Shown piece by piece: positions 24,473 through 45,819 of a stretch of 45,957 nt of DNA (the first letter of the stretch is position 1; each line of letters opens with the position of its first letter). The translations under genes were made by a program, and so were the position numbers. The notes under the pieces are model-generated. The model was given only the letters and a program-made list of their open reading frames with translations, did not search any database and was not told the DNA's origin. Source of the stretch: Flavobacteriales bacterium (GTDB lineage Bacteria; Bacteroidota; Bacteroidia; Flavobacteriales; ECT2AJA-044); NCBI GenBank assembly GCA_021296215.1, contig JAGWBA010000010.1, positions 1 to 45,957 of the forward strand, given 5' to 3'.

Positions 24473-25519
24473 TCAACGATACAGACGCTGCTGATCGAGC
24501 CAATTGCGGTATCGCGCAGCGTTGTGATTGTGGGCGGTGAGGTTCGTTGCGAACTCGTGATAACCCGGCCTTTCAACACTAGCGCACATAAACATGTAGC
24601 TGTGTTCTTCGTAATTGAGTACCGCCTCTATGGCCCGTAAGCTCGGAACCCCTATTGGACCAGGAGGTAATCCGTCGTACAAATATGTATTGTAGGGCGA
24701 ATCGATCTGCAAATCCGTGGTGAGCACTCTGCGAATGACCGTATCCGTATGGTCTTGTTTTAATGCAAACACGACCGTGGGGTCCGATTGTAACCTCCAA
24801 CCTCTTCGAAGGCGATTGATATACAATCCGGCAACGGTCTTCATTTCGCGAAGCTGAACCGTCTCGCGTTCCACGATGGAAGCCAAAGTACTGACTTGAT
24901 TCGGGTTCATGCCGATCGACTTGGCGGCACTGGTTCGCCCTTCGTGCCAATATTGATCGTGCTCTCTAAGCATTCGCTCTATGAAGGCCTCGGCACCCGT
25001 ATTCCAATACATCACATAGGTATTGGGTAAGAAAACCCCCAGAATGGTCTCGCGGGTGTACCCTTTAGCTCTGAGATAGTCGGGATCGGTCAACAAGGTT
25101 ACAAGTTCTGTAGAGTCGGCTTCGAGTTCGCTGCTGACCACTCCAGCCAGTTCGTATACGTTATCGATGTTGTTGAAGGTGACATCTACGGGTGTTTGTC
25201 CGCCCGATCGCAGCAAGTTCACGATGTCATTGTTCGACATGCCACTCTTCAATAGGTATTTCCCACTTTTGACCTTTCGATCGTATTTCTTCAACTTAGC
25301 GACCCATTTGAAGCTCTTGACCGAAACAAGAACAGAGTCGGTGCGCAATTGCTCCACCACAGAGTCGAAGCGACTATCGGATTCGATATACAGATCGTAC
25401 TTTTCGAATCGCTCGGTCACGTTCGACGACCAGATCGCCGAATAGGTTCGCGAAGCGATCAGCGCCACGATGGCCACGACGGCTACCAACGCGATCCTAA
25501 ACCACTTACGCCGCATCAT
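24473..25519 (-). CDS. mltG: Endolytic murein transglycosylase MltG
   Basis: A 348-residue inner-membrane protein with an N-terminal helix (FRIALVAVVAIVALIAS) and a periplasmic YceG domain. It cuts nascent glycan strands and helps set their length. LASIVERETVQLREMKTVAGLYINRLRRG carries the catalytic glutamate (ASIVERE), and LQSDPTVVFAL and SPYNTYLYDGLPPGPI are family motifs. The start overlaps the stop of the multihaem cytochrome gene by 4 bp, so it is the last gene of the dapF operon. Confidence 0.93.
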   Translation of the reverse strand: MMRRKWFRIALVAVVAIVALIASRTYSAIWSSNVTERFEKYDLYIESDSRFDSVVEQLRTDSVLVSVKSFKWVAKLKKYDRKVKSGKYLLKSGMSNNDIVNLLRSGGQTPVDVTFNNIDNVYELAGVVSSELEADSTELVTLLTDPDYLRAKGYTRETILGVFLPNTYVMYWNTGAEAFIERMLREHDQYWHEGRTSAAKSIGMNPNQVSTLASIVERETVQLREMKTVAGLYINRLRRGWRLQSDPTVVFALKQDHTDTVIRRVLTTDLQIDSPYNTYLYDGLPPGPIGVPSLRAIEAVLNYEEHSYMFMCASVERPGYHEFATNLTAHNHNAARYRNWLDQQRLYR

Positions 25520-27516
25520 GGATAAACCTGTTTGAGTTGTTCATATACTTGATTGGCCCGCGGGTGATTCGGCTCGATCCGCAATATATGCACCAAATCG
25601 CGCTCGGCATCGGCCCATCGTTCTTGGTACAACGCAAGTCCCGCCCTATTCAGCAACCCGGGGACGTAATCCGGATCCAAGGCGATCGCCTCATCGTACA
25701 GCTTGGCAGCCCTTTCGAGGTCGCCTTCCCTAAGCCAATAAAAACCCAAATTATTCAAATTCTCCGGGTAGTACGGATACTCCTTATAAACGAACTCGAG
25801 CTGCGAAAGTGCCTTCTCGCGAAGCCCCATATCCATCATCAAGGTGGCTATCTTGTTACGAAACTCGAGTTGGTAGGGAGCCAGGGAGATCGCCCGGGAT
25901 AAAAAGTCAAAGGCCTCTTCGTTTCGGCCGATATTCCTATAACTCTGGCCAATACGGTAGGCGGTCCACGCATCGTTGTTCGTAAAATCCGTCGACCTCA
26001 GCGCATCCAAGGCATTCGCCCTTCCCCGCTGATCGATGTAGTCGCAAAGCCCATCGAAGTCCTCACTCAGGAAGTGCCAATTCACCACCTCATACAACGG
26101 CTCCCCCGCTCGATCGATGAACACCTTGGCCGAATCCAAAAACTGCGGATACGCGGTAAATTTCTCATACTGCTGCAGGTAGGACCTCGCCTTCGTGCGA
26201 TCGTTGGGCGAACCTTCGTTCACACTTACAAGTCCCATGAATTTTCGAATCTTTTGCGCCTGCGGCGCGATGTTCTCCTCCCCGGCCATGTCCAACTCCG
26301 GAACCCGGATCTTGTGATCGTGCACCGTTACGTGGGGTATATCGATGCTCGTGCTACTCGGCATATGGCACGCCACACAGTTGAAGTCATCGGCCGCCAC
26401 ATCCTCCTGAGGAGCCCTACATCCGAACATCGGCGTTTCACCGTGGCAATCACCACAGGTGGCGTTGAACTGCTGAATATTGGTCTCGCGCACACTTTTA
26501 TGCGGATTGTGACAGCTGATGCAGTTGAAGGTCTCCTCGGCCCCCAAGTAGCATTTACTCTGCTTGAACCGATCGACGTGCGAGGCCATGATGAATTCAT
26601 CTTCGCCGCCCTCATAACGGGGCAAAAACACGCTCATGACCTCAGACAAGCGCATGCCCGGTTTAAAGTCGTACCAGTCCTTTCCGGGCTTCAGTACCGC
26701 ATTCCCCTGTAAATGACATCGCTGACATACCTCGAACTGCAGGTCGCCTTCCAACTTGGCCGGATTCACGATGCTGTAATCGATGAATTTACTCGTGTCG
26801 ACCACTATGCCCTGCCCTTTCTCGATCACGTGGATCTGACCGGGCCCGTGACAGCGCTCACAGCTAATGCCGTCCGGAACGCCGTTGAACTTGTTCTCTG
26901 AACCCAGTACGAACTCTGGCAGGGAGTTGTGGCAACTCATGCATTCGAGCCCAATGGTTCGACTAAATCGCGTGTTGTTCCCGTTCTCGAATCCGGGCGG
27001 AAAATCGAGCTTACCGCTTTGGGTGTAGTACGTAAATGGCACTTGATGTAAGTAGCCGTTGACATTGTAGATATGCGAGTTCGTATGCTGACCCGAGCCG
27101 ATGATGTAGTCGACCGATTCGATCCGCTTGTATGTGGTGTCGAGCCCATGGAGCCGGTATTCGAGCACCTTCAACTCTTCCCCTTTCCAGAACGGGTGGT
27201 ACCAGAAATCGCGATACTCATCGTAAATCTTGGAGTCGGGGCCAAGTTTGCTCGAACTCTTGACCCGCGAGGCCTTATCAAAGCTGAGTCCCATTCCGGT
27301 GTGTACATAGGTGTCGTAGATATCGCCATGGCAGGCCTTGCAGACCTGCTTGCCGACATAGGCGACGGTATCCGCGAGGTTCTTGTAGGTCGGGTGTTGT
27401 TCATCGGGCCGCAGGCCCAAATTCTCCTTTTCATCGGCACTGCCACCGCCCGAACAACGGGCGGCCAAGATCACGACCGCGGTGGTCATCGACGCAAGCA
27501 CCAACCATTTCTTCAT
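25516..27516 (-). CDS. Multihaem c-type cytochrome with TPR domain, lipoprotein
   Basis: A 666-residue protein: a lipoprotein-like signal (VVILAARCSGGG), a cytochrome region of about 330 residues with seven CxxCH haem sites (CKACH, CMSCH, CERCH, CQRCH, CISCH, CGDCH, CVACH), and a C-terminal half with tetratricopeptide repeats (for example NDAWTAYRIGQSYRNIGRNEEAFDFLSRA, ENLNNLGFYWLREGDLERAAKLYDEAIALDPDYV). It fits the cytochrome c554/NrfA-like TPR family whose members are mostly of unknown substrate. It sits in the outer membrane or periplasm. The gene overlaps both neighbours by 4 bp. Two mini-palindromes lie inside it. Confidence 0.88.
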   Translation of the reverse strand: MKKWLVLASMTTAVVILAARCSGGGSADEKENLGLRPDEQHPTYKNLADTVAYVGKQVCKACHGDIYDTYVHTGMGLSFDKASRVKSSSKLGPDSKIYDEYRDFWYHPFWKGEELKVLEYRLHGLDTTYKRIESVDYIIGSGQHTNSHIYNVNGYLHQVPFTYYTQSGKLDFPPGFENGNNTRFSRTIGLECMSCHNSLPEFVLGSENKFNGVPDGISCERCHGPGQIHVIEKGQGIVVDTSKFIDYSIVNPAKLEGDLQFEVCQRCHLQGNAVLKPGKDWYDFKPGMRLSEVMSVFLPRYEGGEDEFIMASHVDRFKQSKCYLGAEETFNCISCHNPHKSVRETNIQQFNATCGDCHGETPMFGCRAPQEDVAADDFNCVACHMPSSTSIDIPHVTVHDHKIRVPELDMAGEENIAPQAQKIRKFMGLVSVNEGSPNDRTKARSYLQQYEKFTAYPQFLDSAKVFIDRAGEPLYEVVNWHFLSEDFDGLCDYIDQRGRANALDALRSTDFTNNDAWTAYRIGQSYRNIGRNEEAFDFLSRAISLAPYQLEFRNKIATLMMDMGLREKALSQLEFVYKEYPYYPENLNNLGFYWLREGDLERAAKLYDEAIALDPDYVPGLLNRAGLALYQERWADAERDLVHILRIEPNHPRANQVYEQLKQVYP
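26255..26272 (-). repeat. Mini-palindrome copy (in cytochrome gene)
   Basis: On the minus strand: CATC, GCGCC, GCA, GGCGC, A. Read in sense by the gene as NIAPQAQ. Confidence 0.65.
27402..27419 (+). repeat. Mini-palindrome copy (in cytochrome gene, N-terminal)
   Basis: CATC, GGGCC, GCA, GGCCC, A. Read antisense by the gene as GLRPD, just after the lipoprotein signal. Confidence 0.7.
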
Positions 27517-38397: not shown

Positions 38398-39732
38398 GTG
38401 AATCTAAAATCCCTGACCCTTGCCCTATTGATAGGCTTGACATGCCATGCTCAATTATGGCCCGGAACCCATGTGCGAGAAAATCTGGATTATCTGATTG
38501 CCAGTATTCATCAATATGAGCCCGCATTGGACGAATACGCTCCTTATTTCGATAAAGAAGCATCAAAGATCATGTCGGAGCTTCAGCCCGAGTGCACGGC
38601 TTTCGAGTACTTCACCTATGTCAGTCGCATTTGCGCCTTGGCCAAAGAGGGGCATTTTGGGGTGGGAAATTGGTCCGGCACCATACACAGAGGCATTCCC
38701 AAAAATGCCTATGCCTATTTGCCTGTAGAGGTAAAGATCATTGACGGTCGAATATTCGTCTGGGAGGATATCTCGAACGAAGCAGTACTTCATCGAGGCG
38801 ACGAGATTCTTTCGATCAACGGTCGCTCCGTACGCCAAATCATCGAGACACTATACGCCTGTACACCAGGTCACGGAGCTATTTATAGTTACTTGGAACG
38901 TACGATCGAAATGGTATTTCCCTGGCTTTACTATTTCCACATAGAGCAACCCAAAACCTTCGAAGCTGCCTATCGCGCTGCAGGAGAAATGGCTACGCTT
39001 TCAGCTTTGACACGCGAGCAACAAGTCGAAAATTTCAAAGAGCGAAACAAAAGCAAGGCCAAACCGGAAGACGAGCCCTTTGCATTCGATATAGACGGAA
39101 ACAAAGCTTACTGGTATTTGCCCGCGTTTGCCCGCGGAAAAGCGGAGTCAATGGGCATCAAAGCAAAAAAAGAATACAAAGCGAACTTCAAGGAAATGCA
39201 AGAGCGGGGCGTTGAGATACTCGTGATCGACCTGCGTGGAAACATGGGCGGACTCCACGAATTCGCCGACGAAATGGTCCCCTATATTCTACAGAACGAT
39301 CCGGATGAAACTTGGCTCAAGGCATCGGAATCATGGGAGGGCAAAACAAAGAAGCACAAGCTACCCAAAGCATCGAAGTATCTCTTTACCGGACAGATCT
39401 ACGTGCTGGTCAATGGTAGAACTTTTTCGAACGGCAGTACTTTGACCAGATACCTGAAAGAATACGGCGATGCGATTGTAATTGGCGAGGAAACGGGCAG
39501 CTGCTATGAAGGGTATGCCGCAGGATCGAAACAATTCATCACACTTCCGCATTCTAAGATGAGTATCGGAATTCCGAGGTATCATATATCGTACCCATCG
39601 GCGGTCAAACAAGCAACCAGTGATCGCGGTGTAATTCCCACGCACATCGTGAAGCCGAGTATAGAGGACCTTATGGAGGACCGCGATGTAGCTGTACTGT
39701 TACTGATGCAGTTGCTCGACAAACAAGACTGA
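38398..39732 (+). CDS. S41-like peptidase, secreted, GTG start
   Basis: A 444-residue protein with a short signal peptide (LKSLTLALLIGLTCHAQ). A PDZ-like segment (VLHRGDEILSINGRSVRQII) is followed by an S41 peptidase-like core (EILVIDLRGNMGG, IYVLVNGRTFSNGSTL, AIVIGEETGSCYEG). In S41 enzymes the serine in the NGRTFS position is the nucleophile; the usual glutamate of SAGE/SSAE is not present (SNGS), so activity is uncertain. GTG at 38398 is the start as no ATG precedes the signal. It is 4 nt before the kinase gene and may belong to that operon. Confidence 0.82.
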   Translation: MNLKSLTLALLIGLTCHAQLWPGTHVRENLDYLIASIHQYEPALDEYAPYFDKEASKIMSELQPECTAFEYFTYVSRICALAKEGHFGVGNWSGTIHRGIPKNAYAYLPVEVKIIDGRIFVWEDISNEAVLHRGDEILSINGRSVRQIIETLYACTPGHGAIYSYLERTIEMVFPWLYYFHIEQPKTFEAAYRAAGEMATLSALTREQQVENFKERNKSKAKPEDEPFAFDIDGNKAYWYLPAFARGKAESMGIKAKKEYKANFKEMQERGVEILVIDLRGNMGGLHEFADEMVPYILQNDPDETWLKASESWEGKTKKHKLPKASKYLFTGQIYVLVNGRTFSNGSTLTRYLKEYGDAIVIGEETGSCYEGYAAGSKQFITLPHSKMSIGIPRYHISYPSAVKQATSDRGVIPTHIVKPSIEDLMEDRDVAVLLLMQLLDKQD

Positions 39733-39736
39733 AGCT

Positions 39737-41131
39737 ATGAGCTGTAGTATATTAGATCTGCGCATGTTTGAACCGCTTGAATCGGTTCCGGAGTCGGAGC
39801 TCAATTGGTTGATCAAGCGCGCCGAGTACCGGGAACTCGAAGAGGGGGCGTTCCTATTTAAGAAGGGTGATCCGGCAGACGAGATGTTTCTGATCATCGA
39901 GGGTGAAGCCGTTTTCTACATGTTGCAAAATGGCGAGCGTCGCGATTTTGGAAGTGTTAAGAAAGGGAGCATAACCGGGTTACTGCCCTATTCCCGTATG
40001 ACCCATGCTTCTGGATATGGGATCGTTACCAAACCAGTGAGACTGTTGGCCGTTTGTCGGAAAGACCTTCGCGATTTAATCGTGGAATGTCCTGAGATCA
40101 CGACTGCTCTCGTTCATCACATGACTTCGAGGGTACGCGATTTTACCAGCACTCAGCAGCAAGTTTATCAACTTGCTGCTTTGGGTAAGTTATCCGCCGG
40201 ACTTGCACACGAGCTGAATAATCCGGCCGCGGCGATCGTCAGAAGTGCGGATTCATTAAAGGAATATCTCGGCCATGTGCCGGATAGATTCAAGAAAGTC
40301 ATCAGCTTGCAGCTCCCCGAAGAAGCCATAGACAGCCTTAACGAATTCACGAGCAGGAAAATCGAAGCGGGTGTTCGAGATATTGGGTTGCTCGAGCGGA
40401 ATGACCTCGAAGATGAGCTTTTCGACTGGCTCGACGATCACGACATTTCCTACGGCGATGAATGGGTTGAGCAATTGGTTGATTTTGACGTTCGCATCGA
40501 AGAGCTCGAAAAGATTTGTGAAACTACTGGAGCCAAAGCACTGGGTCCACCTTTGGGCTGGCTGGTCAATGTATTGACGACGGAAAAAATGGTGGACGAG
40601 ATCCAAGATGCGTCCAAGCGGATATCGGAGCTGGTTCAATCGGTGAAGACCTACAGTCACATGGACCAAAGCACGGACCGTCAGCTGTTGGATTCCCTTG
40701 AAGGGCTGCGCAATACAGTACGGATGCTAGGTCATAAGGCTCGCAGATTTCAAATCAAGATTCGCGAAGACTTTGATCCGAATACGGGCAAGGTTTTGAT
40801 CTACCCATCTGAAATGAATCAAGTGTGGACGAATTTGCTCGATAATGGACTCGATGCCTTGGAAGGAAAAGTCGATAACCCGCAGATAACGCTGAAAACG
40901 GGGCGTCACAGTCAAACGCTAGAGATCTCGATCGTAGACAATGGCCCCGGAATACCACTTGAAGTGCAAGACCAGATCTTTAACCCGTTTTTCACTACCA
41001 AAGCCATGGGCAAGGGTACCGGACTGGGCTTGGACGTGGTAAAGCGAATTATAGATCGACATGGCGGGCGGATCGAATTGGACTCAGTAGTGGGTCGACC
41101 GGAATTTAAAATCGTATTGCCGACGAATTAA
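39737..41131 (+). CDS. Histidine kinase with cyclic-nucleotide-binding domain
   Basis: A 464-residue, soluble sensor kinase without membrane helices. Residues about 10-130 form a cNMP-binding (CRP-like) domain ([24 protein letters not shown]). The phosphorylation site is H158 in GLAHELNNP. About 100 extra residues lie between this and the ATPase domain, forming an unusual insert ([11 protein letters not shown]). The N-box (NLLDN near 366-370), VDNGPGIP and GKGTGLGL complete the HATPase domain. The stop shares one base with the start of the response regulator gene, its likely partner. The ligand could be a cyclic nucleotide, but the binding residues are not clearly conserved. Confidence 0.92.
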
Positions 41132-42795
41132 TGGAGCAAAAACCGATCATATTCTGTGTGGACGATGATCCACAAATATTGAGAGCGATACAGCGCGATC
41201 TCCGTTCGGAGTTTCGCCGGGAGTACCGCGTCAAGAATACGTCATCGGCCCGCGAGGCCTTAACGGCCCTCGAAGAGTTGAAGAAAAAAGGGGAAACGGT
41301 CGCCCTATTTCTGTCGGACCAGCGCATTCCCGAAATGCTCGGGGTTGAATTCCTGGAGCTCGCCAAGAGGTTTTATCCGACCGCAAAACGCGTACTCTTA
41401 ACCGCCTATTCGGATACCGATGCGGCCATTAAGGCGATCAACGACGTTCAATTGGACTATTACCTCCTCAAGCCTTGGGATCCGCCCGAAGAAAAACTGT
41501 TTCCAGTCCTCAAGGATCTATTGGACGATTGGTGGGCTCAGTACACTCCTGAGTTTCGCGGGGTTCGATTGATCGGTTATCAATACAGTCCCAAGAGTCA
41601 CGAGATCAAGGATTTCTTGGCCGGGAATCTGATCCCTTACGAGTGGATCGAATACGAGAATACCGAACGGGCCGCGCCGTTTGTAGAGCGACACTCGTTC
41701 GATGCAACTCATTTGCCCGTTCTTGTGACCGAAGGCGGCGAAGCACTATTAAAGCCCACCGTACAAGAGGTGGCGCGAAAGCTTGGAATGAGCTTGACCG
41801 CAAGTGAAAAACCCTATGATGTAGTGATCATCGGCGCGGGTCCGGCCGGATTGGCAGCTGGCGTTTACGGCGGCTCTGAAGGGCGTGTAACGGCGCTCAT
41901 AGAGCGGTGTGCTCCCAGTGGTCAGGCGGGGACATCGAGCCGAATTGAGAATTATTTGGGGTTTCCGAACGGATTGAGCGGGGCAGACCTCGCTCGACGG
42001 GCCATTACACAAGCGACGCGGTTCGGAATCGAGTTCTTGTCGCCGACCGAAGTGTCGAGCATTGAGCGCGTGAATCCTTACAATATCCTCAAACTGAAAG
42101 AAGGTGGAGAATTGAAGGCTCGCGCAGTAGTGGTCACCACGGGCGTCAACTACCGAAAACTAAGCGCTCCGGGGATGGATCGGTTTACGGGCGCGGGAAT
42201 CTACTATGGGGCGGCCACTACTGAAGCATCTGCCTGCCAGGACGGCGACGTATATATCGCGGGCGGAGGTAACTCGGCGGGGCAAGGAGCCGTGTACCTC
42301 AGCAAGTTCGCGCGAAAGGTCCACATCTGCATTCGCCGCGAAGATCTCACCTCGAGCATGTCGCAATACCTCATCGACCAAATAGACGGAATAGAGAACA
42401 TCGAAGTGCTCTCGAAGACCGAAGTGATCGAGGCACATGGCGACGATCGTCTCGAAGCCCTGACCATCAAGAACATCGAAAGTGAAGCGACTGAAAAGGT
42501 ATCGGCCCGAGCACTCTTCGTTTTCATTGGTGCTCGCCCCTACACCGATTGGCTGAGTGCCGATTTCAAGCGCGACTCCAAAGGCTTCTTGCTCACGGGC
42601 AACTCCCTCATGAACCACGAATCGTTCAAAAGAGAATGGTTACTGCAGCGCGACCCTTTCACCCTCGAAACATCCGTACCCGGCGTTTTCGCGGCGGGCG
42701 ACGTGCGAAGTGGTGCCATGAATCGCGTCGCTTCAGCCGTAGGTGAAGGAGCTATGAGCATCAGCCTGGTACATCAATACCTCAGCGAAAACTAA
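41131..42795 (+). CDS. Response regulator fused to thioredoxin-reductase-like flavoprotein
   Basis: A 554-residue fusion of three parts. Residues 1-120: receiver domain with acidic DDD (11-13), phosphoacceptor D63, TAYSD and K in LLKPW. Residues about 145-220: thioredoxin/glutaredoxin-like fold without cysteines (LIGYQYSPKSHEIKDFLAGN). Residues about 228-554: FAD/NAD(P)H domain of the TrxR family with IIGAGPAGLAAG, IAGGGNSAGQGA and GVFAAGDVRSG. Where TrxR has its CxxC pair this protein has GAATTEASAC, so no dithiol exists and it cannot be a standard thioredoxin reductase. Fusions of this kind are known in databases, function unknown. The kinase gene overlaps it; egtB follows after 3 bases. 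Confidence 0.92.
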   Translation: MEQKPIIFCVDDDPQILRAIQRDLRSEFRREYRVKNTSSAREALTALEELKKKGETVALFLSDQRIPEMLGVEFLELAKRFYPTAKRVLLTAYSDTDAAIKAINDVQLDYYLLKPWDPPEEKLFPVLKDLLDDWWAQYTPEFRGVRLIGYQYSPKSHEIKDFLAGNLIPYEWIEYENTERAAPFVERHSFDATHLPVLVTEGGEALLKPTVQEVARKLGMSLTASEKPYDVVIIGAGPAGLAAGVYGGSEGRVTALIERCAPSGQAGTSSRIENYLGFPNGLSGADLARRAITQATRFGIEFLSPTEVSSIERVNPYNILKLKEGGELKARAVVVTTGVNYRKLSAPGMDRFTGAGIYYGAATTEASACQDGDVYIAGGGNSAGQGAVYLSKFARKVHICIRREDLTSSMSQYLIDQIDGIENIEVLSKTEVIEAHGDDRLEALTIKNIESEATEKVSARALFVFIGARPYTDWLSADFKRDSKGFLLTGNSLMNHESFKREWLLQRDPFTLETSVPGVFAAGDVRSGAMNRVASAVGEGAMSISLVHQYLSEN

Positions 42796-42798
42796 TTT

Positions 42799-43950
42799 AT
42801 GATCGACCGCTACAACGCCATTAGACAACGCACTGAAGACCTCTGTAAGCCGCTCGAGATCGAGGATTACGTACCTCAGTCGATCGTCGATGTGAGTCCG
42901 CCCAAGTGGCATCTCGCCCACATGACCTGGTTCTTCGAGACCTTCATTCTAAAGCCGAATGATCCCTTTTACAAGGAATTCCACCCGAAGTACAACTACC
43001 TCTTCAACAGCTACTACGAATCGGTCGGTGATCGTGTATTGCGCGATCGCCGCGGCCATATGAGTAGGCCCACGGTCGCCGAGGTCTACGCGTATCGAGC
43101 ACACGTGAATGAAGCCGTGAATCGCCTAGCTCAAAAGCGCGGCTTCGATGGGCTGGAAGACACGCTTGCACTGGGTTTGCAGCACGAGCAGCAGCATCAG
43201 GAATTGCTCATCACCGACCTCAAATACACGCTGGCGCACAGCCCTTTGTTTCCGGCCTATGACGAAAGCTGCGACTGGGAAACGAATTTTCCGGCGCCTA
43301 GCGGCGCGATGGTGGAGCTCGCGGAAGGATTGTACGATATCGGTGCCACAGGAGATCGGTTCTTTTTCGACAACGAACAAGGAAGGCATAAGGTGTATTT
43401 GGAAGGTGCGCGCATCAGTGCCGATTACATTACCAACGCCGAATACCTCGAATTCATGGAGGGCGGTGGGTACGGCGATTTTCGCCATTGGTTGAGTGAA
43501 GCCTGGGGAATGGTTCAAGAGGAGCATTGGCGAGCCCCACTTTACTGGTACAAGGTCGACGGCGACTGGTACCAGTATCAACTGAATGGACTGGTGGCCA
43601 TCGAGCCGCAGGCTCCGGTTAGGCATATTAGTTACTTCGAGGCCGATGCCTTTGCACACTGGGCGGGCAAAAGGCTGCTCACGGAATTCGAGCGCGAGGC
43701 GGTGGCCGATCAGCTGAATGGCGGTTGGCTTTGGGAGTGGACTTCGAGTGCCTACCTCCCCTACCCGCGATTCCAGGCGGCCGAGGGCGCTATGGGTGAA
43801 TACAACGGCAAATTCATGGTGAATCAGATGGTACTGCGCGGTGGATCGTTGGCGTCGCCACCGGGACATGTCGACCGGCCGACGTATCGAAACTTTTTTC
43901 ATCCTCACCTTCGTTGGCAATTCAACGGAATCAGGCTCGCAGAAAAATGA
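42799..43950 (+). CDS. egtB: Ergothioneine biosynthesis sulfoxide synthase EgtB
   Basis: A 383-residue non-haem iron enzyme that joins a thiol to trimethylhistidine with O2. The N-terminal DinB-like domain gives the probable iron ligands H41 (HLAHMTWFFE), H130 and H134 (HEQQHQE). The C-terminal half is the FGE-sulfatase fold, ending LRGGSLASPPGHV ... YRNFFHPHLRWQFNGIRLA. The double tyrosine in FNSYYESVGD (72-73) may be the catalytic pair seen in type II enzymes; this is an inference. No egtA or egtC is nearby, so cysteine rather than glutamyl-cysteine may be the thiol. A mini-palindrome (IEPQAP) lies inside. Confidence 0.92.
   Translation: MIDRYNAIRQRTEDLCKPLEIEDYVPQSIVDVSPPKWHLAHMTWFFETFILKPNDPFYKEFHPKYNYLFNSYYESVGDRVLRDRRGHMSRPTVAEVYAYRAHVNEAVNRLAQKRGFDGLEDTLALGLQHEQQHQELLITDLKYTLAHSPLFPAYDESCDWETNFPAPSGAMVELAEGLYDIGATGDRFFFDNEQGRHKVYLEGARISADYITNAEYLEFMEGGGYGDFRHWLSEAWGMVQEEHWRAPLYWYKVDGDWYQYQLNGLVAIEPQAPVRHISYFEADAFAHWAGKRLLTEFEREAVADQLNGGWLWEWTSSAYLPYPRFQAAEGAMGEYNGKFMVNQMVLRGGSLASPPGHVDRPTYRNFFHPHLRWQFNGIRLAEK
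43599..43616 (+). repeat. Mini-palindrome copy (in egtB)
   Basis: CATC, GAGCC, GCA, GGCTC, C. Read in sense as IEPQAP. The stem differs from the GGCCC copies, but pairing is perfect. Confidence 0.6.
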
Positions 43951-44876
43951 TCATTTACACCCCGAATAAAGCTTTTGGCCGCGACATCCTACATTTAGGC
44001 CACAGCCGGACCATGCGCAAGCTCATGTACTACACTCTGGGCGTTGGCGTCGTGACCGCTATTCTTATCGCCCCTATCATTCATTTAGAGATCTCGGAAG
44101 AGCTGAAAATGAACCCGACCGTTTTCTCTTTCCTCGGGATCGTGCTGAGCATACTACTCGTATTTCGGACCAATTCGGCCTACGACCGCTGGTGGGAAGG
44201 CCGCAAACAGTGGGGAGCACTGGTGAACAACACCCGAAACCTCGCCATTCTGGTTCAAACGGCATTTCCCAAGGACGACGAACAGGTGCGGCATTTCATG
44301 GCCACGCGGATTAGTAACTTTTGCCTGGCGCTCGTGGAGCATTTGCGCAACGGGGTCATTATGGAAGAGCTCATCAACTTGACCGATGACGATCGACATC
44401 GCTACGATCAAAAGGACCATGTGCCCAACTACATTGCCACAGGGATTCAGCAGAAATTCCACGACGCCTACAAGGCGCACGTAATAGGCCCTGAGGATCA
44501 CCGGAACACCATGCAGGTGTGGAGGGGTTTTCTGGATATTCTGGGCGCTTGCGAGCGAATCAAGAAAACCCCTATCCCCTTTAGCTATGCGGTACATATA
44601 AGAACCTTCATCCTGGCCTATACGGTGCTTCTTCCCTTTGCCTTGGTAGCAACCTTTCAGTTTTGGACGGTGCCCTTGGTCATGTTCATTTTCTACGCGT
44701 TCATGGGCGTGCAGATGATGGCCGAGGAGATCGAGGACCCCTTTGGGACGGATTGCAATGATTTGCCCACCAGTACCATTGCCCATAACATCAAGAATAA
44801 CGTTTTCGAGATACTGGAAGACAAGCACCACGTCAAAACGGAATCAACTCAACGCGACTACGATAAAATTCATTGA
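43947..44876 (+). CDS. Bestrophin-family (UPF0187) channel protein
   Basis: A 309-residue membrane protein with four helix regions (MYYTLGVGVVTAILIAP, FSFLGIVLSILLVFRTNSAY, TFILAYTVLLPFALVATF, VPLVMFIFYAFMGVQMMAEE). FRTNSAYDRWWEGRKQWG is the conserved bestrophin signature, and EEIEDPFGTDCNDLP the C-terminal one. Bacterial members form pentameric, sometimes anion or cation channels. It starts within the stop of egtB (ATGA) and ends one base before egtD, so it is made together with the ergothioneine enzymes. Confidence 0.92.
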   Translation: MIIYTPNKAFGRDILHLGHSRTMRKLMYYTLGVGVVTAILIAPIIHLEISEELKMNPTVFSFLGIVLSILLVFRTNSAYDRWWEGRKQWGALVNNTRNLAILVQTAFPKDDEQVRHFMATRISNFCLALVEHLRNGVIMEELINLTDDDRHRYDQKDHVPNYIATGIQQKFHDAYKAHVIGPEDHRNTMQVWRGFLDILGACERIKKTPIPFSYAVHIRTFILAYTVLLPFALVATFQFWTVPLVMFIFYAFMGVQMMAEEIEDPFGTDCNDLPTSTIAHNIKNNVFEILEDKHHVKTESTQRDYDKIH

Positions 44877-44877
44877 T

Positions 44878-45819
44878 ATGACCTCTTTTGCCGACGACGT
44901 CCGCACCGGATTCAGCACTGAGCGAAAACATATATCGTCGAAATACCATTACGACGACAAAGGCAGCGCCATTTTCCAGGCTATTATGCGCATGCCGTCG
45001 TACTACCTGACCGATAGCGAGTTTGAGATCTTCGAGACCAACAAGGCCGATATACTGGCGCAATTCGATCCGTCGGTCGGCCCATTCAATCTGGTGGAGT
45101 TCGGCGCAGGAGATGGCCAAAAGACCAAGGTCTTGCTCGAGTATTTTCTGGAACAAGGAGCCGACTTTACCTATGTGCCGATCGATATCTCGAAATCGGC
45201 CTTGGATGATCTGTGCTATGATCTTTGTGCACGCTGGCCCGAAATGAACGTAAGCCCGCTCAACACCGACTACATGAGCGGGTTGGATGTGCTGCGCAAA
45301 GGAGATCGACGAAACATCGTGCTCTTTTTGGGCTCTAATTTGGGCAACTTCTCGCGTGAGGCCGCGGATCGATTCTTGACCGAGCTGCGTTCACATTTAG
45401 CACCGAACGACGCTTTATTCATAGGACTCGATTTGCAGAAGGACCCCAAGGTAATCCTGCGCGCGTACGATGATCCTGAAGGTATTACCAAGTCCTTCAA
45501 CTTGAATCTGCTTACACGTATCAACCGGGAGCTCGGCGGACACTTTGACCCGATGAAGTTCGATTTCTACTGCAGTTATTCACCGGAGACGGGCGAGGTT
45601 CGCTCCTATTTAGTGAGTAAAGTAGAACAAGATGTGCGCATTGATGCCTTGGGTGAGTCGTACCACTTTGATCAATGGGAGACGATCCACACGGAGATCA
45701 GCCGAAAATTCAAGTTGAGTAATCTACCCGGGTTGGCCGAACGAAACGGGTTCGAGCACCAGGCGAATGATTTCGATTGCAAGCACTATTTCGTGAATAG
45801 TTATTGGAAGGCGGTGTAG
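44878..45819 (+). CDS. egtD: L-histidine N-alpha-methyltransferase EgtD
   Basis: A 313-residue SAM-dependent methyltransferase that makes hercynine (trimethylhistidine), the substrate of EgtB. KYHYDDKGSAIFQAIMRMPSYYLTDSEFEIF is the family N-terminal signature, VEFGAGDGQKTKVLLEYF the SAM-binding motif, and LFLGSNLGNFS the middle motif. The ATG at 44878 is preferred over an upstream in-frame start that would lie within the bestrophin gene. It is the last gene of the unit; 71 bases later an inverted repeat is found. Confidence 0.93.
   Translation: MTSFADDVRTGFSTERKHISSKYHYDDKGSAIFQAIMRMPSYYLTDSEFEIFETNKADILAQFDPSVGPFNLVEFGAGDGQKTKVLLEYFLEQGADFTYVPIDISKSALDDLCYDLCARWPEMNVSPLNTDYMSGLDVLRKGDRRNIVLFLGSNLGNFSREAADRFLTELRSHLAPNDALFIGLDLQKDPKVILRAYDDPEGITKSFNLNLLTRINRELGGHFDPMKFDFYCSYSPETGEVRSYLVSKVEQDVRIDALGESYHFDQWETIHTEISRKFKLSNLPGLAERNGFEHQANDFDCKHYFVNSYWKAV

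Follow-up and report, generated by a model that had tools for sequence, protein, structure and literature searches.

In thioredoxin reductases (TrxR), NADPH reduces FAD, the resulting FADH- reduces the disulfide of a CxxC motif, and the dithiol so formed moves away to reduce thioredoxin. The TrxR fold also functions without this motif in the TrxR-like ferredoxin-NADP reductases (FNRs) of the YumC type and in the YpdA/Bdr bacillithiol disulfide reductases. Response regulators in which a TrxR-like domain is the output ('TrxB output') constitute a named, catalogued class (PMC5847659, PMC9739842, PMC9953108), exemplified by SCO7298 with its kinase SCO7297 (PMC9739842) and by a 'Mycobacterium-like' fusion of a receiver (REC) domain to TrxR (PMC5847659). 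These censuses class the proteins by fold only, and no mention was found in them of dithiol absence, of a cysteine-less glutaredoxin-like domain or of ergothioneine. Here, we describe a member of this class encoded in a 45,957-nucleotide stretch, the window, of a Flavobacteriales bacterium (contig JAGWBA010000010.1, assembly GCA_021296215.1). Its gene, a complete open reading frame on the forward strand (41131-42795, from ATG to stop), codes for a protein of 554 residues with REC, glutaredoxin-like and TrxR-like FAD/NAD(P)H domains, in which both electron-relaying dithiols are absent. A sequence-only reading of the window had considered such a signalling protein unusual. The REC plus TrxR-like architecture is in fact already known and widespread, and the novelty, as far as searched (most subscription papers lay outside the search), is the loss of both dithiols throughout the family, together with the link to ergothioneine.

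The receiver domain, defined by Pfam and by conservation, spans residues 3-137 (41137..41541), with the Pfam Response_reg match at residues 7-119 (54.7 bits, cut-off 30.2). Across 39 homologues, D11, D12, the phospho-acceptor D63 and K114 are invariant, while D13 and T91 are conserved in at least 90%; the characteristic residues of the REC superfamily are thus present, and the receiver is intact, as the sequence-only reading had stated. The following segment of about 80 residues (143-222; 41557..41796) reads as a glutaredoxin-like fold; it has no Pfam match in the window protein itself, and relatives reach PF00462 with 27.4 and 25.0 bits (cut-off 22.9). This domain contains no cysteine, and the position of the glutaredoxin CPxC motif is occupied by S153-P-K-S156 (41587-41598). 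The earlier description of this domain as cysteine-free is therefore accurate; the protein as a whole has four cysteines (9, 260, 369 and 399).

The remainder of the protein, residues 227-553 (41809..42789), has the low-molecular-mass (low-Mr) TrxR fold without CxxC, as indicated by Pfam (Pyr_redox_2 at residues 229-540, 109 bits), PDB sequence matches, Foldseek and conserved motifs. The closest PDB sequences are low-Mr TrxRs, aligned over residues 228-552. The glycine motifs for FAD and NAD(P) are kept in the same 39 homologues (G235-x-G237-P-x-G240, GGGNSAGQ near 378-385, and G523-D524), which bears out the earlier view that the output is enzymatic rather than DNA-binding and retains its cofactor-binding residues. 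The protein has the fold and the FAD and NAD(P)H sites in common with low-Mr TrxB, at an identity of about 27-32%, and the place of the catalytic Asp is likewise acidic; it differs by the missing CxxC, the added glutaredoxin-like and REC domains, and a conserved insert. In alignments, this family-specific segment (residues 474-513; 42550..42669) is mostly missing in TrxR. W503, R507, P509 and E513 are invariant within it, and it could be a site for a substrate or a partner.

The former dithiol site lies at G360-A-A-T-T364-E365 (42208..42225), where TrxR has C-x-x-C-D. Column counts over 129 relatives and 15 TrxRs place the TrxR cysteine pair at G360 and T364, which are one residue further apart than the cysteines, and align the catalytic Asp with E365; the dithiol is thus replaced, as had been noted from the sequence GAATTEASAC. 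The relatives were gathered from Bacteroidota, Acidobacteriota, plasmids and one genome per species across GTDB, and comprise 86 REC-fused proteins, 37 with another N-terminal domain (seven of the eight scanned carry a CRP/cyclic nucleotide monophosphate (cNMP)-like domain) and 6 without a long N-terminal domain. They span at least eight phyla. Both TrxR cysteines are absent in 128 of the 129, that is, in 128/128 members of the REC- or CRP-like-fused clade, so that the search for a CxxC in homologues, proposed as a check by the sequence-only reading, found one only in an outgroup. The acid position is occupied by E in 119 relatives and by E or D in 123, and the glutaredoxin CPxC site most commonly reads S-P-x-S (56/86 REC members).

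The sole exception, L100 from a SAR202 bacterium, keeps both the glutaredoxin CPDC and the TrxR CATC. In a tree of a thinned set, it falls outside a clade of 107 dithiol-less sequences with a Shimodaira-Hasegawa-like approximate likelihood ratio support of 100. Because this nearest outgroup retains both motifs, loss of the two relay dithiols falls on the branch that gave rise to the family. The L100 glutaredoxin-TrxR fusion (L100:7884-9209) constitutes a natural comparison enzyme. Among the phylum neighbours of the window protein in the tree are Flavobacteriaceae. Dithiol loss is a property of the family, and not an accident of one genome or of chance, since CxxC is absent from all 128 clade relatives and purifying selection on the gene is strong (nonsynonymous pN 0.13 and synonymous pS 0.83 against a same-genus copy). 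Certain acidobacterial and verrucomicrobial REC members carry a second CxxC (CHVC and similar) at core positions 186-189, about 30 residues ahead of the dithiol site; other members lack it, and it was set aside.

By Pfam and NCBIfam, the domain order is that of the 'TrxB output' class of response regulators, to which the protein belongs. Since their defining dithiols are absent, it is not classed as a thioredoxin reductase, a glutaredoxin or AhpF. The thioredoxin-disulfide reductase equivalog TIGR01292 gives 225 bits, below its cut-off of 343, and its CxxC is lacking; the AhpF model gives 140 bits against a cut-off of 503, with the CxxC centres of both the N-terminal and the TrxR-like domains absent; and the catalytic cysteine of the glutaredoxin CPxC/CPxS motif is missing. 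The absence of these dithiols may nonetheless leave room for a protein working like any of the three. AhpF is similar in that a thioredoxin-fold domain precedes a TrxR-like domain, but it relays electrons via two CxxC centres, neither of which has an equivalent here.

AlphaFold2 was run on 39 sequences and gave a model with a mean predicted local distance difference test score (pLDDT) of 88.8 and a predicted template modelling score (pTM) of 0.71. The best full-length Foldseek match is AhpF (4xvg, E 4.5e-32), and low-Mr TrxRs match over the FAD/NAD domain. In the comparison with TrxR that the sequence-only reading had proposed, the model superposes on the flavin-reducing form 5mh4 with a template modelling (TM) score of 0.93 and a root-mean-square deviation of 2.1, versus a TM score of 0.63 for the flavin-oxidising form 5mjk. 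The predicted flavin-reducing conformation would fit an enzyme that has no dithiol to swing to the flavin, although a conformational preference of AlphaFold is weak evidence.

As described for SCO7298, to which the protein is likened by that description, the receiver-TrxR fusion is encoded next to a histidine kinase. This soluble kinase (39737..41131, forward strand) has by Pfam a CRP/cNMP-like domain at residues 32-115, H158 in an H-box, and HATPase_c at 359-461; its stop codon overlaps the ATG of the flavoprotein gene by 1 nucleotide. A same-strand kinase of one family, with conserved catalytic motifs, adjoins 78 of 82 REC-type genes (36 upstream, 42 downstream), and the same kinase family adjoins only 1/49 relatives without a receiver. 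In the sister subfamily, a CRP-like domain is fused straight to the same glutaredoxin-like/TrxR-like core; we infer that the same kind of input and output exists either as one protein or as a split two-component pair. Members of this subfamily, annotated as CRP/cNMP-domain 'thioredoxin-disulfide reductases', share 40-46% identity with the window protein and fall in the same clade, and the sampled ones lack CxxC; they differ in that the sensor domain is part of the same polypeptide, a receiver is lacking and no same-family kinase lies alongside. Public records name family members either FAD-dependent oxidoreductase or cNMP-domain thioredoxin-disulfide reductase.

The CRP domain of the kinase shows no obvious canonical cyclic-nucleotide cassette. 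In many Bacteroidota members, it carries a G-x-(L/I)P-(Y/F)-SR motif. An unusually long segment separates the H-box from HATPase. Near the flavoprotein gene, Deinococcus (L036:2038-3435) and Caballeronia (L038:4478-5908) have a second kinase of this family. In both actinobacterial loci read, on plasmids of Tsukamurella and Streptomyces (L037 and L040), the kinase is followed by a UBP-type zinc-finger gene, itself followed in L037 by an S-(hydroxymethyl)mycothiol dehydrogenase. A gene for LtrA (low-temperature-requirement protein A) is found directly downstream of the kinase on a Nostoc plasmid (L035), and about 2 kb further on from it on the Deinococcus plasmid (L036).

The most informative clue to the role of the protein, passed over in the sequence-only reading, is the operon in which its gene lies. 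EgtB, the sulfoxide synthase of ergothioneine biosynthesis (42799..43950; TIGR03440, 495 bits, cut-off 360), begins 3 nucleotides after the flavoprotein gene. A bestrophin-family membrane protein (43947..44876; PF25539, 242 bits) overlaps the EgtB stop by 4 nucleotides, and EgtD, the L-histidine N-alpha-methyltransferase (44878..45819), starts 1 nucleotide after it. EgtD scores 280 bits with TIGR03438, slightly under the cut-off of 291, and 320 bits with Methyltransf_33, far above that model's own cut-off. EgtB and EgtD occur together here, which identifies an ergothioneine biosynthesis locus. From the kinase to EgtD, all genes are on the forward strand and either overlap or lie no more than 3 nucleotides apart. 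The same-strand run starts with an S41-family peptidase with a PDZ_4 domain (38398..39732; Peptidase_S41, 67 bits), ending 4 nucleotides before the kinase.

Another genome of the genus, G445, has the same gene order, again headed by the peptidase, minus the bestrophin gene that separates EgtB from EgtD in the window. It was dropped as independent support, as synteny within the genus runs well past the operon and adds little. Dyadobacter frigoris (L041) has, in this order, an OpuB/EgtUV-type ATP-binding cassette (ABC) transporter, EgtB, EgtD, the kinase and the REC-flavoprotein. CRP-type members of Acidobacteriota adjoin an EgtB-like sulfoxide synthase and EgtD at seven loci (G237, G265, G374, G383, G415, G423 and L074), three of which also have a transporter of the same type. 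The acidobacterial EgtB-like proteins have similar scores for EgtB and OvoA, under both cut-offs, and their exact product is uncertain. The genome of the window is a 2.5-Mb assembly of bacteroidete type, with genes for gliding (GldG) and a type IX secretion system. Elsewhere in the window, the reverse strand encodes a 666-residue protein with multihaem cytochrome similarity and tetratricopeptide (TPR) repeats (25516-27516).

Across genomes, EgtD co-occurs with the flavoprotein family: it is present in 29/32 carriers versus 33/166 non-carriers in Bacteroidota, 35/38 versus 40/161 in Acidobacteriota, and 14/23 versus 38/226 in Pseudomonadota. katG was used as a control for lifestyle, followed by stratification by family. 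Among katG-positive genomes, the association stays (23/26 versus 26/102, odds ratio 22), and the odds ratio between katG itself and EgtD is 2.7. The within-family stratification gives a Cochran-Mantel-Haenszel p of about 0.0009; as family labels cover only part of the genomes and the genomes are related, these p-values are indicative.

The protein is probably a phosphorylation-gated NAD(P)H reductase that passes electrons directly from its flavin to a small oxidant, and the output of a dedicated two-component system. The soluble kinase, which has a CRP-like sensor domain, would phosphorylate D63, and this would alter the activity or the oligomeric state of the fused NAD(P)H-dependent FAD reductase. 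The latter would have descended from a glutaredoxin-TrxR fusion after loss of both dithiols. Because the dithiols are absent, the reduced flavin would itself reduce a small oxidised molecule or a partner, bypassing a protein-cysteine relay, with E365 as the likely acid, placed at the acid position of TrxR. A high-potential acceptor would fit such a transfer. The most likely physiological setting is oxidative stress and the redox balance of low-molecular-weight thiols, in this genome the ergothioneine pool particularly. Oxidised ergothioneine is the leading but unproven candidate substrate. It is a good candidate because its redox potential is listed as -60 mV (PMC10950700), because the EgtE step frees a sulfenic acid that must be reduced to yield ergothioneine (PMC4493562), and because only mammalian recycling was found: the selenoenzyme TrxR, which Jenny et al. 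in 2022 describe as the first system in which an enzyme directly recycles oxidised ergothioneine, with little or no activity in non-selenium TrxRs (PMC8868364). No bacterial enzyme recycling oxidised ergothioneine was found in the literature searched. That the REC- and CRP-fused dithiol-less flavoproteins as a whole are bacterial NAD(P)H-dependent oxidised-ergothioneine reductases, with phosphorylation as the switch in the two-component form and direct ligand binding in the CRP form, is a tentative and rather unlikely extension; the substrate would then be ergothioneine as its disulfide, the sulfenic acid that EgtE releases, or 5-oxo-ergothioneine.

Several points weigh against this interpretation. 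With a pTM of 0.71 and no inter-domain error, the model is silent on receiver-enzyme coupling. No enzymology on any REC-type member was found in the literature searched, which, on REC-TrxR fusion function, CxxC-less REC/cNMP TrxRs and bacterial ergothioneine reductases, yielded only censuses and reviews. Genome relatedness inflates the co-occurrence statistics. Adjacency to egt genes is rare in REC-type loci (the genus of the window and one of about 24 well-flanked loci in other genomes) and EgtD is missing in 9/23 pseudomonad carriers, so ergothioneine is not the sole setting. It is quite conceivable, if somewhat short of an even chance, that the ergothioneine link simply reflects an aerobic life exposed to stress, together with chance gene order, and that the flavoprotein has no part in it: most REC-type loci are away from egt genes, many pseudomonad carriers do without EgtD, and the acidobacterial adjacency may have a single origin, since the six such loci in the tree (L074, L087, L149, L150, L152 and L156) share one clade of ten. 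However, egt adjacency occurs in three separate lineages, and the EgtD association survives both the katG and the family stratification, with katG itself only modestly linked to EgtD.

The remaining alternatives concern the catalytic activity itself. The sequence-only reading had deduced that electrons must go to another acceptor than a dithiol; this is too firm, as ATII-TrxR, a CRP-domain protein with the layout of the sister subfamily, is reported to reduce thioredoxin (Km 1.03 uM, kcat 28.4/s) and 5,5'-dithiobis(2-nitrobenzoic acid) with NADPH or NADH as donor (PMC6544261). If ATII-TrxR lacks CxxC, this single study provides the chief argument that the protein is a thioredoxin or general disulfide reductase operating unconventionally, for instance through C369 or directly from flavin to disulfide, under phosphorylation control; the likeness of ATII-TrxR to the family is one of layout. 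C369, which lies within GAATTEASAC, is present in 91/129 relatives and so is not invariant, and Cupriavidus L094 has a Cys at 376, a position number that the study also gives for one cysteine. Nevertheless, C369 is replaced by Phe or Tyr in 23/86 REC members and is therefore unlikely to be essential, and the genome already holds an ordinary CxxC TrxB on another contig (G000:C7), which together make this route improbable. The loss of both relay dithiols with retention of both nucleotide sites could also be that of a sensor whose turnover has been lost, the receiver or a partner reading FAD/NAD(P)H occupancy or the flavin redox state, and the cysteine-less glutaredoxin-like fold serving as a docking module. 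Conservation of E365, of the putative active-site surroundings and of W503 and R507 in the insert exceeds the needs of a passive sensor, and activity is reported for a CRP-type protein; we give this explanation a low probability. A receiver-controlled electron-transfer flavoprotein of the FNR type, or a peroxide-making NAD(P)H oxidase, is very unlikely. TrxR-like FNRs do appear in the PDB sequence search (3lzw, 6gar and 5ygq), but far more weakly than TrxR (1e-17 versus 1e-46), and neither the annotated neighbourhoods nor the window operon showed a gene for ferredoxin or flavodoxin; the YumC-type FNRs and YpdA/Bdr likewise show far weaker similarity and are not REC-fused. Overall, the observation made by the sequence-only reading is confirmed, and its interpretation partly supported.

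In many genomes, members of this family are annotated as thioredoxin reductases, yet they lack the residues that define this activity. Redox models of actinobacteria, cyanobacteria, acidobacteria and bacteroidetes are misled by this annotation. Were the flavoenzyme gated by phosphorylation, the system would constitute a direct switch from signal to metabolism, bypassing transcription. If its substrate is oxidised ergothioneine, the protein would fill a gap, as a signal-controlled enzyme devoted to recycling ergothioneine in bacteria.

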